Assembly: GCA_028289425.1 (NCBI GenBank)
Contig: JANQPL010000012.1
Location: 124,001-188,000 of the forward strand
Length of the DNA: 64,000 bases
Origin: Alphaproteobacteria bacterium
GTDB lineage: Bacteria > Pseudomonadota > Alphaproteobacteria > JANQMY01
Reading direction: 5' to 3'
A program made the position numbers and the translations under genes. Below, in pieces: positions 1,097 through 7,622 of the stretch. Position 1 is the first letter of the stretch, and each line of letters opens with the position of its first letter. The notes beneath the pieces are model-generated. The model saw only the letters and a list, made by a program, of their open reading frames with translations, ran no database searches and had not been told where the DNA came from.

Positions 1097-2305
1097 TCAG
1101 TTTTCTGCCGTTTCGGGCATGGGCCCCGTATATTGCGCGCGGGGGCGGATCAGCTGACCGGACTGGTTTTGCTCCAACGCATGGGCGATCCAGCCGGTGG
1201 CGCGGCCCACGGCGAAAAGTGCAATCGGTGCCTCCGCCGGCAAGCCCAAATGCCGCTCCATCAGCACCAGCGCCATATCCACATTCTCCCGGTGGCCGGT
1301 TTCCGCAAAAATGATGTCGAGGGTTTTTTGTTCGATTTCGGTGAGGTTGAGCCGGTCGATCATGGCGCGAGCGCGGGGGTCGCCGTTTGGATAAAGCATG
1401 TGGCCAACACCGGGCAATCTTTCCCCTCGGCGCAGGCGGCTGTGGATGACGGTCATGGGGTCTTGGGTTTGGTCGATTTGATCGAAGAGGAATCGCACAT
1501 GGTCGGATGCGCTGCCATGACGTGGGCCGGACAGGGCCGCAAGGCCCCCCAGCAGACAGGCGCTGAGCGACGCGCCGGTCGACGCCACCACGCGCACGGC
1601 AAAGGCTGAGGCGTTCAACTCGTGATCCGCCAGCAAAACCAACGTACGCCTCAAGTGATCGGCATACTGAAGATCGACGTCCCACGCGGTGGCAAGTTGT
1701 TCGTGAATGGGCGTTTTTTTGACGCTTTGTTCGCAAATTGCTGATGTCAGGGCACGCACCAGGAAAGCGCCTTTGCGGCACAGCAATTCCGGATGGGACC
1801 GGCGGATCGGCAGGTCCGATGTGTTAAGCCGTGCAAGGGCTGCCGTGCTGCGCGCCACAACGGACCACCGACCGACAGGCCCGCCTTCCACAGGATTGGC
1901 GTAGACCAGCCCCACCGGCAGCGGTTCATCGAAGGGGGAGCTATCTTCCGCGCCCCAAAGCAGGCAGGCGGTTTCTTCAAGGCTCGCCGTGTCGCCAAGG
2001 GAGATCGCGTCTTGCCCCCGGTAATAAAGCTTGCCGCGGTCGATTAGGGTCAGCTCGGATTCAAGCACCGGCAGACCAAAATCAAGCGTGCCCGCCGCGA
2101 TGCGGTCCGGTTTGCGGCCTTGGGCCTTACGCTTGACCAGGCGGTCCACATCCTCCGCCACATAGAGCTTCCGGCGGGTGTCTTGGCCGCTCCCCTCCGG
2201 GTTGATCGAGCGGATCAAGCCTCGGCTCACATAGGCATAAAGGGTCTGGCGGCTTACTTTGAGGCGTTTTGTGGCCGTGTCAGCCGTAATGTATCGCTCT
2301 TTCAT
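1097..2305 (-). CDS. Citrate synthase-family protein with N-terminal DNA-binding HTH
   Basis: This 402-residue protein joins a MerR/excisionase-like helix-turn-helix (residues 1-60, with ATKRLKVSRQTLYAYVSRG as the recognition unit) to a citrate-synthase domain. The enzyme part keeps the substrate and catalytic residues: His228 (ADHELNAS), His263 (GPRHG), His302 (GVGHMLYPNGDPRA) and Asp343 (ENVDMAL), numbered against E. coli His226/264/305 and Asp362. It should condense an acyl-CoA with oxaloacetate (citrate or 2-methylcitrate); specificity is not readable. HTH-citrate synthases are annotated elsewhere in Alphaproteobacteria, and whether the HTH binds DNA is generally untested. It is divergent from a second citrate synthase gene across a 103-bp gap that contains an inverted repeat, which suggests autoregulation. 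Confidence 0.85.
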   Translation of the reverse strand: MKERYITADTATKRLKVSRQTLYAYVSRGLIRSINPEGSGQDTRRKLYVAEDVDRLVKRKAQGRKPDRIAAGTLDFGLPVLESELTLIDRGKLYYRGQDAISLGDTASLEETACLLWGAEDSSPFDEPLPVGLVYANPVEGGPVGRWSVVARSTAALARLNTSDLPIRRSHPELLCRKGAFLVRALTSAICEQSVKKTPIHEQLATAWDVDLQYADHLRRTLVLLADHELNASAFAVRVVASTGASLSACLLGGLAALSGPRHGSASDHVRFLFDQIDQTQDPMTVIHSRLRRGERLPGVGHMLYPNGDPRARAMIDRLNLTEIEQKTLDIIFAETGHRENVDMALVLMERHLGLPAEAPIALFAVGRATGWIAHALEQNQSGQLIRPRAQYTGPMPETAEN

Positions 2306-2322
2306 GCGCTTTGCCTTATTTT

Positions 2323-2345
2323 ATATTGATCTATTCAATCAATAT
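2323..2345. promoter_or_regulatory. Inverted repeat between divergent citrate synthase genes, candidate operator
   Basis: Perfect 8-bp arms ATATTGAT (2323-2330) and ATCAATAT (2338-2345) are separated by 7 bp. A nested 8-bp palindrome CAATATTG lies at 2340-2347. The gap is strikingly AT-rich compared with the flanking genes. It is the natural place for both divergent promoters and for a regulator site; the HTH fused to the leftward citrate synthase is the obvious candidate ligand. Confidence 0.5.
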
Positions 2346-2408
2346 TGACGATATATATTATATTCGCCATCTATCCGGTCAAGACAAACAGTGGAAGGAG
2401 AAAGCGCC

Positions 2409-3494
2409 ATGTCGACCGGACTGGATGATGTTATTGCCGCGACAACCGTTATGAGCCATGTGGACGGTGCCGCCGGCCGCCTGATCGTGCGCGGCTATGA
2501 TCTGGATGAACTGGCGCAGCGATTTTGCTTCGAAGACGTGCTCAGTCTGCTGTGGGACGGGGTGGCAGAGGATGTACCGGATGATATGGCGGCCGCTTTG
2601 GGGCAGGCTCGGGTGGATGCCTTTGCCGTCTTGGAAGAGTGTTTGCCGCTGCCCGTATCCCTGAGCGCTGTCGAACAATTGCGCTACCTGTTGAGTGCGT
2701 TGCCCGATACGGTGCCCGCAGCCAAGCAGCCGCTTCTGGCTGTCGCGGCCACAGCGGTTTTCACGGCGGCGATCCTTCGGCTGCGTGACGGCAAATCACC
2801 CATTGCGCCGGACCGCTCTTTGGAGCAGGCGCATGATTTCCTACGCATGCTGAGGAATGAGAGCGTTCCCGCCCATCACGCAAAAGCACTAGATACCTAT
2901 TTGGTGACCGTTGCGGATCATGGCCTCAATGCGTCCACATTTGCAGCGCGTACCATCGCTTCGACGCAGGCTGGGCTTTTTTCGAGCATCGTCGGTGGAT
3001 TGTGCGCCCTCAAAGGTCCCTTGCATGGCGGCGCACCGGGCCCGGTTCTCGACATGTTGGACGCCATCGGTACCGCGGACAATGCAAGCGATTGGCTCAC
3101 CCAGGCCGTGGAAAGCGGCGAGAGGCTTATGGGGTTTGGCCACCGGGTCTACCGGGTGCGCGATCCGCGGGCGGACGTTCTAAAACGTGTCGCCAAAAGT
3201 CTGCGGGAAGACTCAAACCGAATTAAGTTTGCGGAGCAGGTGGAATCAGCCGCGCTGACGGTTCTGGCAGACCAGAAGAAAGACCGGGTGCTTGAAACCA
3301 ATGTGGAGTTTTACACCGCCCTCGTCTTGGAGGCCTTACGACTGCCGCGGGAAAGCTTCACCATGATCTTTGCCATGGGCAGGGTCGCCGGCTGGACAGC
3401 CCACCTGCTCGAGCAGCTCAAACATGGCCGACTCATTCGTCCCCTGTCGGAATATACGGGTCCGATGCCGCAATCGGGCGTCGCAGCAGAGTAG
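2409..3494 (+). CDS. Citrate synthase / methylcitrate synthase-like protein
   Basis: A 361-residue citrate synthase-fold protein without the HTH of its divergent neighbour. I chose the ATG at 2409 because an AAGGAG site lies 8 bp before it; an in-frame GTG at 2391 overlaps that site. Conserved residues are His171 (ADHGLNAS), His206 (GPLHGG) and His245 (GFGHRVYRVRDPRA). The position of the catalytic Asp (NVDFY in E. coli) is Glu300 (NVEFY), a change also seen in some actinobacterial-type paralogues. The reaction is probably acyl-CoA plus oxaloacetate. The C-terminal IRPLSEYTGP tail is typical. The pair may be two subunits or two enzymes of different specificity; the sequence does not decide. 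Confidence 0.85.
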   Translation: MSTGLDDVIAATTVMSHVDGAAGRLIVRGYDLDELAQRFCFEDVLSLLWDGVAEDVPDDMAAALGQARVDAFAVLEECLPLPVSLSAVEQLRYLLSALPDTVPAAKQPLLAVAATAVFTAAILRLRDGKSPIAPDRSLEQAHDFLRMLRNESVPAHHAKALDTYLVTVADHGLNASTFAARTIASTQAGLFSSIVGGLCALKGPLHGGAPGPVLDMLDAIGTADNASDWLTQAVESGERLMGFGHRVYRVRDPRADVLKRVAKSLREDSNRIKFAEQVESAALTVLADQKKDRVLETNVEFYTALVLEALRLPRESFTMIFAMGRVAGWTAHLLEQLKHGRLIRPLSEYTGPMPQSGVAAE

Positions 3495-5783: not shown

Positions 5784-5868
5784 TCCGGGCGCGTCCCTCA
5801 GATTGTGGAAAACCCGCAAAAAATTGGCACTTTTGTGTCACTTAACCGCCACACACACCTTGCGTTCG

Positions 5869-5908
5869 CCGCCAAAAAATCATGAAATGGGCTGCTTGTA
5901 TTTGGCGG
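5869..5908. promoter_or_regulatory. Inverted repeat upstream of the proteasome-like gene
   Basis: CCGCCAAA (5869-5876) and TTTGGCGG (5901-5908) are perfect 8-bp arms, 24 bp apart, ending 23 bp before the start at 5932. Position suggests an operator or leader hairpin. I cannot assign a regulator. Confidence 0.3.
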
Positions 5909-5931
5909 TTTGAGGGGGAACGAGTAACGCC

Positions 5932-7176
5932 ATGACGTCCGAGATTATCCTCATGAACAGAAATGTGCTGACCATCGGCGCCGACAGCGCGATGACCAGC
6001 TGGGCGGGTGGCCGTTACCGTATTGCAAACGAGGCGCAGAAAATCTTCACCTTGGGCGGCGGCGCGCCCTTGGGCATCATGATCTACAACAGCGCCGACA
6101 TTCTGGGACATCCCTGGCAATCGGTGATCGGCGAGTTCATCGATACCCATGCCAAAACGGATTTCGCATCGGTGGAGGATCTGGCGTCCACCTTCTTCAA
6201 CTATCTGGACAATCATATGTCGCTCTTCGAACCGGAGGAAGAAGAGCGCTGGTTCGCGCTGACCCTGAATGTCATCTATGCCCAGATCGTCCATTTGGCG
6301 CGCGAACGGCTGAAGTTTGCCGGCATGACCGAAGACCGCAGTTTAGGTCGTGAAGAAGCCTTGGTGATGGCGATTAATTTTGTCCACCGCGCGTTTCATG
6401 ATGAGGAGGGGAATCCACTCCCTAATCTAGACTGCTTTTCAGATACGTCGCCGGATGAGGTCTACCAAAAGTTTAGCGACACGGTGGACGCGGTCATTCG
6501 CGATCATTTTTCGGATGTGACAAGTGACGCGACCGTGTTGGGCAAGCTGCGCGAGATTGCCGGCTTCGCGGTCGTTAAGGAATTGTTCCTTGAGCGGATG
6601 ATCATGAGCGGGCTGGTTTTCGCGGGCTTCGGCAGCGACCAGATGTACCCGACATTTGACGAATACTTTGTGTCGACAGTTTTTAACAATCGGGTGAAAC
6701 GGCGCCGGCATTTCTTGAACGAAGTGTCGAATAAAAACCAAGCGTCCGTAAGCTTCTTCGCTGATTCCGATGCCAGTGTCGGGTTTTTGCGCGGCATCGA
6801 TTCCGACACGGCAGGCTTCATTTTTGGCGCCAGCGAGTTCTTCCTGACTAAGATGAGCGGGCCGTTTGTGGACCAGTTGGAGTTCCTCGATTCCAACCAA
6901 AAGGAAATGTTGACCCAAAGCTTCATTCAAGAGTTCTCACCGATTTACCACCAATCGCTTTTGGGGGCGCTCGATCAGAAGGTGGAGATGGACCGCATCA
7001 CACCGTTCTTGGATGTGGTGAATTCCATGGGGCCAGAAGAAATGGGCACCATGACCGCCGATTTGGTCAATCTGAATATCTTGCGGAAGAAGGTCATCAA
7101 CGAGGAAGGCACCGTTGGTGGACCTGTCCGGGTGTACACCATGTCCAAGCGCGGTGGCACCAAGCAATTAATGTAG
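5932..7176 (+). CDS. Proteasome-like (Thr-Ntn hydrolase) candidate, uncharacterised
   Basis: A 414-residue soluble protein with no signal peptide. It begins Met-Thr, so Met removal would expose Thr as residue 1. Counted from that Thr, Asp17 falls in IGADSAM, exactly where HslV and proteasome beta subunits have Asp17 (AGDGQ), and Lys36 in AQKIFTL lies near their Lys33. The following LGIMIYNSADILG matches the next proteasome-fold strand-helix. Only about the first 180 residues look like the fold; the remaining 230 are a helical, acidic extension. I infer a self-processed or Met-trimmed Thr protease/amidohydrolase distinct from HslV and Anbu. The gene 11 bp downstream is probably co-transcribed. 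The protease role is unproven. Confidence 0.5.
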   Translation: MTSEIILMNRNVLTIGADSAMTSWAGGRYRIANEAQKIFTLGGGAPLGIMIYNSADILGHPWQSVIGEFIDTHAKTDFASVEDLASTFFNYLDNHMSLFEPEEEERWFALTLNVIYAQIVHLARERLKFAGMTEDRSLGREEALVMAINFVHRAFHDEEGNPLPNLDCFSDTSPDEVYQKFSDTVDAVIRDHFSDVTSDATVLGKLREIAGFAVVKELFLERMIMSGLVFAGFGSDQMYPTFDEYFVSTVFNNRVKRRRHFLNEVSNKNQASVSFFADSDASVGFLRGIDSDTAGFIFGASEFFLTKMSGPFVDQLEFLDSNQKEMLTQSFIQEFSPIYHQSLLGALDQKVEMDRITPFLDVVNSMGPEEMGTMTADLVNLNILRKKVINEEGTVGGPVRVYTMSKRGGTKQLM

Positions 7177-7187
7177 AGTGAGTGGAT

Positions 7188-7622
7188 ATGAGACGCAGAC
7201 GATTTCGCCACAGCAGCAAGAACCGGATTTCATCGACCTTGTCGGAAGGTTGGCGTGATGAGTTCGCCCGCCTGAAAGAGATCGAAGCCGTCCTTGACCA
7301 GCGGATGAGCGATTGGTCAACGGCTGAGCAAAAGTATCAAGCAAACCATTTGCTGCCTTCTTATGCGATGGACCGGCGCTACGACATCTTTATGGAACCG
7401 CGTGTTCCGGAAATTGCGGAGAAGTTTGCGACCGGCGCTCAGCACCAAGAGCAAACGCTGGTGCTGGAAGATCCGGACGAGATCCTGCAGCAGGTCGAAA
7501 GCACTGGGACATCGGACGAATTGCGGGCGCGTGCTGGGCGCCGGCGTCCGGCACGGAAGCTGCTCGATCCCGATGCGCCGCGCAAAAAGGGTTTCTTACG
7601 GCGCCTCTTCGGCGCGCGGTAA
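7188..7622 (+). CDS. Small basic protein of unknown function, partner of the proteasome-like gene
   Basis: A 144-residue protein. Both ends are highly basic (MRRRRFRHSSKNR at the start, RKKGFLRRLFGAR at the end), with an acidic helical middle (LEDPDEILQQVE). It has no signal peptide or membrane segment. It starts 11 bp after the previous stop, so the two genes look like an operon; ATG 7188 has only a weak purine run before it. Its 3' end overlaps the convergent dehydrogenase gene by 27 bp. No family recognised. The basic C-terminal tail could be a docking or DNA/membrane contact, but this is speculation. Confidence 0.6.
   Translation: MRRRRFRHSSKNRISSTLSEGWRDEFARLKEIEAVLDQRMSDWSTAEQKYQANHLLPSYAMDRRYDIFMEPRVPEIAEKFATGAQHQEQTLVLEDPDEILQQVESTGTSDELRARAGRRRPARKLLDPDAPRKKGFLRRLFGAR

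Follow-up and report, generated by a model that had tools for sequence, protein, structure and literature searches.

Introduction

Fuchs, Alva and Lupas described 22 proteasome-like groups in 2021 (PMC8665760). Several of these are named PMI, for Proteasome homolog with Multiple Insertions, and two helical insertions define that group. Phages are listed for PMI-4 alone among the PMI groups, a subfamily with HDY66466.1 as reference sequence, and informative gene context was not reported for the PMI families in that survey (PMC8665760). An insertion between helices H3 and H4 could block the formation of double rings, and the same fold and superfamily also include connectase, which acts as a monomeric ligase (PMC8665760). 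In the open-access literature we found no subsequent work on PMI function.

Here, we analyzed a stretch of 64,000 nucleotides from an alphaproteobacterial genome (the window), which encodes a PMI-type protein, hereafter the enzyme, followed directly by a small basic protein, hereafter the partner. What looks new here is that the enzyme gene is accompanied by a small downstream gene of its own, both in the window bacterium and in many relatives including phages. The 2021 survey offered no functional clue for the PMI families; an adjacent small partner makes their function directly testable.

The enzyme gene and its predicted fold

The enzyme gene occupies positions 5932-7176 of the forward strand, on which the features of the gene pair given below also lie, and encodes 414 residues plus a stop codon. 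It starts with ATG, and the protein begins MTSEIILMN. The host genome (5.4 Mb, 99.75% complete) contains the gene in single copy, and in the window it is flanked by a membrane protein gene on one side and a hydroxyacid dehydrogenase gene on the other. Compared with a congeneric genome, dN/dS is approximately 0.07 for the enzyme and 0.23 for the partner, showing that both genes of the pair are coding. Only 6 codons separate the upstream in-frame stop from Met1, with similar spacing family-wide, so that the enzyme has no room for a propeptide; a sequence-only reading of this DNA had already argued that none would be needed. The 70-90 bp or so 5' of the gene (within 5842-5931) are highly similar in the congeneric genome, which suggests a conserved promoter or leader. 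Elsewhere in the window, positions 1097-3494 hold two divergent citrate-synthase-like genes, one of which has, by eye, an N-terminal helix-turn-helix-like segment.

The AlphaFold model of the enzyme, built from a 53-row alignment, reached a pLDDT of 91.6 and a pTM of 0.89, and its strand-helix order is typical of proteasome beta subunits. In a Foldseek search of the PDB, 50 of the 50 best matches listed were 20S proteasome chains (best E 1.7e-4, probability 1.00). The TM-scores were modest (0.27 by query length, 0.50 by target), as expected because about half of the enzyme is insertion. The model thus supports a proteasome-like (Ntn) fold. This agrees with the HslV/proteasome-like Ntn fold proposed in the sequence-only reading, which had named structure prediction as a check and a fold other than Ntn hydrolase as evidence against it.

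The additional residues are arranged differently from what had been proposed. Instead of a 230-residue helical extension, the AlphaFold model places the extra ~200 residues in two internal helical insertions, because the final core strands, 399-405 and 409-412, sit at the C-terminus and close the fold there. Insertion 1 is a helical block after H2 (residues ~95-222, positions 6214-6597) and comprises helices 101-129, 137-153, 174-192, and 200-215, all located between H2 and the core strand that follows. Insertion 2 (residues ~315-366, positions 6874-7029) is a long helix, 321-365, lying between H3 and H4 and bordered by helices 291-314 and 368-389. The boundaries of both insertions are estimates from the model.

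Conservation of the predicted catalytic residues

The predicted nucleophile after removal of Met1 is Thr2 (codon 5935-5937), which aligns with Thr1 of HslV and proteasome beta subunits. Asp18 (codon 5983-5985) and Lys37 (codon 6040-6042) align with HslV Asp17 and Lys33, respectively. The codons confirm the positions given in the sequence-only reading, namely Asp at 17 and Lys at 36 when Thr2 is counted as 1. The register was taken from a profile comparison with HslV of the same class, in which D18 fell on D17 and K37 on K33 at E 0.003 with a low probability (10%).

An alignment of homologues, in which loss of any of these residues would have spoken against a proteasome-like protease, retained T2, D18, and K37 in 118/118 unique homologues (53 cellular and 65 unique phage or plasmid rows). 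In the 53 cellular rows, T2, D18, K37, and G232 were the only invariant columns. Some search seeds held M-T-[SC]-E or AADSA, and T2 (and D18 in the viral set) was therefore partly selected for. K37 was absent from every search seed, and seed-free profile searches retained all three triad residues. Judged from these alignments, conservation of the triad is more than chance, and we regard the assignment of fold and triad together as close to certain, although this is a judgement and not a computed value.

Residue 53, the likely equivalent of the oxyanion-hole Gly47 in an inferred register, is Gly in 84 of the 118 homologues and Asn in the window protein and 26 others. At residue 400 (codon 7129-7131), 111/118 homologues have Asp and the window's genus has Arg, which may alter the surroundings of the active site.

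Distribution and family placement

Whole-genome and contig searches recovered homologues that are mostly 18-33% identical to the enzyme. Their hosts include Alphaproteobacteria, other Pseudomonadota, Myxococcota, Actinomycetota, Chloroflexota, Bacillota, archaea, phages, satellite phages, and plasmids. Occurrence is sporadic, with the family present in 11 of 398 genomes of the phylum. All 53 cellular rows match the PHROGs phage family phrog_5990, the window protein doing so at E 7e-56 over residues 1-409; PHROGs gives neither function nor fold for it.

When the enzyme sequence alone was searched against Pfam, NCBIfam, PADLOC, and PDB sequences, no match rose above chance. A profile search of PDB sequences gave weak proteasome matches only (E 2.4, N-terminal stretch). 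The enzyme has no match to PF00227, the Pfam proteasome model. Judged by this model and an adjacent hslU for HslV, and by the model with alpha-E/transglutaminase neighbours for Anbu, it qualifies as neither; its genome encodes hslVU separately and has an Anbu-like gene at another locus, among the neighbours usual for Anbu. Both insertions fall at the sites characteristic of PMI-3 and PMI-4. From the described features we judge, without a computed score, that the enzyme very probably belongs to the PMI group, as PMI-4 or an adjacent subfamily. The proposal of a new family is thus not sustained: PMI-type homologues were published in 2021 (PMC8665760), and phrog_5990 covers the whole family.

Phage copies often occupy cargo-like positions: at the satellite phage end opposite the integrase, beside lysis genes, or as the last prophage gene. 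Five loci in satellite phages and prophages, two of them Streptococcus satellite phages, show such positions, and the copies are annotated just as hypothetical protein (phrog_5990). On two Rhizobiales plasmids and in a Caulobacter MAG, relatives of the enzyme lie less than ~5 kb from genes for a multi-ubiquitin domain protein and a ThiF-type E1, and the multi-ubiquitin/ThiF cluster of R. gallicum also holds a ClpP-like gene. This proximity, seen in three cases, possibly reflects chance or a shared island. The relative on the Hyphomicrobiales UR115 plasmid is broken by a frameshift or stops and is probably a pseudogene.

The downstream partner gene

The partner gene (positions 7188-7622) encodes a net basic protein of 144 residues plus a stop codon. 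Its best start is the ATG at 7188, 11 bp past the enzyme stop, and the relative with the 88%-identical enzyme has the same start. A two-gene layout with a small basic partner had been proposed for this locus, and it recurs well beyond it: both ORFs are present, and a net basic protein of 112-194 aa lies directly 3' of the enzyme in 26 loci. These 26 loci fall within one alphaproteobacterial clade of the enzymes, which a quick tree supports at 97% SH-aLRT. When the two congeneric genomes are compared, the partner is 58% identical and the enzyme 88%; as these comparisons and dN/dS indicate, the partner evolves faster than the enzyme but is still subject to purifying selection.

At many loci the two genes overlap or leave a gap of 1-5 bp. 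The eight loci where this gap is 1 bp have a purine-rich ribosome-binding-like site (GGAGGC-TGA-n-ATG in most), and because it lies within the last codons of the enzyme, translation of the two genes is probably coupled there. A profile built from 22 partners matched with E below 1e-16 in 3 of 372 genomes of the class, each time beside the enzyme, and the other four matches had E ~0.005. In our judgement, which was not computed, the enzyme and partner are likely to be functionally linked.

The conserved parts of the partner are an N-terminal helix, a central motif, and a basic C-terminal tail. The central motif reads W-x-[KR]-x-[YF] in most relatives (also given as W-[AS]-[KR]-x-[YF]) and is weak in the window copy (RYDIFMEPR). 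An AlphaFold run on a fused enzyme-partner sequence (23 rows) left the enzyme core unfolded (pTM 0.52) and was uninformative on docking; in the same run the partner showed short helices of low confidence, with a pLDDT under 50 elsewhere. In a sister lineage, the next gene after the pair usually encodes an exported FKBP-type peptidyl-prolyl isomerase (13 loci and others), within ~200 bp in most loci. We considered this gene as a part of the system and rejected it, as the pair lacks this neighbour in the window's genus.

The partner tail, RKKGFLRRLFGAR (positions 7581-7619), closely resembles the membrane-targeting sequence at the C-terminus of E. coli MinD, EEKKGFLKRLFGG. The MinD anchor is known to attach to membranes by forming an amphipathic helix (PMC8155659). 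In helical hydrophobic moment, the partner tails do not exceed shuffled versions (z = -2.7), and a membrane tether is therefore a proposal from the similarity to MinD. The MinD-like tail is confined to one clade, and partners elsewhere are short and different. By analogy with MinD, the tail might tether the partner to the membrane, an idea that our own uncomputed judgement places on the doubtful side.

To assess the wider family, we counted ORFs with a ribosome-binding site that start -25 to +80 bp from the enzyme stop, with other long genes of the same loci as controls. Among phage-borne loci outside the clade, an ORF of 35-80 aa lies downstream in 25/34 (74%), compared with 15/149 controls (10%; p = 2e-13). 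For other cellular loci outside the clade, the figures are 10/33 and 10/190, respectively (p = 9e-5). By these counts, a small downstream gene is a general trait of the family. Several of the small phage proteins recur in related form in different phages. We also looked for a motif common to partners within and beyond the clade. The motif [YF][FMNL]x(0-3)P was found in 14 of 41 partners outside the clade against 3.9 expected (0/1000 shuffles), but it was picked after looking and serves as a lead only; W-x-x-K-[YF] is weak in these partners and is likewise only a lead.

Proposed mechanism and alternative explanations

Our main reading is that the enzyme is a threonine Ntn hydrolase of the PMI group, most probably PMI-4, and that the partner is a small adaptor dedicated to it; we give this reading a probability of about 0.5. 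The homology, the triad, the fold, the insertions, the constant neighbourhood of the partner, and its tail sequence are computed; catalysis, specificity, enzyme-partner binding, and membrane tethering are what we infer. Methionine aminopeptidase would remove Met1 and expose Thr2. The Thr2 hydroxyl would then attack a peptide (amide) bond, and Lys37 and Asp18 would take their classic proteasome roles. HslV-style stacked rings are unlikely with two helical insertions, and access to the active site is probably restricted; for these reasons the enzyme would be specific and not a bulk degrader. The N-terminal helix and conserved central motif of the partner may bind the enzyme or present a substrate, and its basic MinD-like tail may tether the pair to the inner membrane. 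That the enzyme acts as a protease, and not as a ligase or another amidohydrolase, is in our uncomputed judgement the somewhat better bet.

The same gene pair could instead form a proteolytic switch, in which the partner serves the enzyme as substrate or inhibitor and is cleaved or ligated, or holds the enzyme inactive. Such a toxin-antitoxin-like arrangement could be used by mobile elements for defence or superinfection control. It would fit the small downstream genes on phage, plasmid, archaeal, and bacterial copies, whose great divergence in sequence is expected for fast-evolving cognate pairs, and also the frequent cargo positions of phage copies. However, no PADLOC defence model matches, a common cleavage site was not found, and the window copy sits on a chromosome and belongs to a clade whose synteny looks vertical in the sister lineage. 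We consider a switch unlikely. A general self-compartmentalising protease like HslV or BPH, with an unrelated neighbour downstream, would share the fold and triad, but the H3-H4 insertion could block double rings (PMC8665760) and the genome already has HslVU and Anbu. Moreover, the partner is never convincingly found apart from the clade and is under purifying selection. We hold this explanation to be decidedly improbable. A connectase-like ligase or transpeptidase, in which the threonine acyl-enzyme is resolved by another amine and not by water and the partner serves as acceptor or donor, draws on the superfamily shared with that monomeric ligase (PMC8665760) and on the bulky helical insertions, which should hinder ring assembly. 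Against it, the insertions occupy sites 3 and 4 and not the S3/S4 site that bears the specificity element of connectase, and a recognition motif is not known; we regard it as very improbable.

Beyond the adaptor reading of the window pair, PMI-4 as a whole might be a widespread two-component system, in which each enzyme is made with a fast-evolving small protein of its own, whether as adaptor, inhibitor, or substrate, and in which the pair is cargo on phages, satellites, and plasmids, for example for defence or superinfection control. We hold this to be speculative and rather unlikely; if true, it would give the first functional clue to proteasome relatives that are so far uncharacterised. The pair may show how proteasome relatives can function with no ATPase unfoldase, and for what reason they are carried by phages and satellites.

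Comparison with known systems

The enzyme shares with HslV the Thr1/Asp17/Lys33 register in the profile alignment and the common superfamily core seen in the Foldseek matches to proteasome chains. It differs in length (414 aa, compared with ~172 aa for HslV), and its neighbours are not HslU, nor does any HslU-like ATPase adjoin it. With Anbu it shares the Met-Thr start, the proteasome-like character, and the lack of a propeptide, whereas the extra element of Anbu is a C-terminal helix. The partner resembles MinD in its tail, KKGFLKRLFGG in E. coli MinD and KKGFLRRLFGAR in the window partner, with KKGFL-x-RLFG in common, but it lacks the MinD ATPase domain. The closest likeness is to PMI-4, with which the enzyme has in common the Thr-Asp-Lys triad, the absence of a propeptide, a long insertion after H1/H2, an insertion between H3 and H4, and, through its homologues, a spread over bacterial phyla, archaea, and phages. 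PMI-4 was published without informative gene context, whereas here a small downstream partner gene is common.
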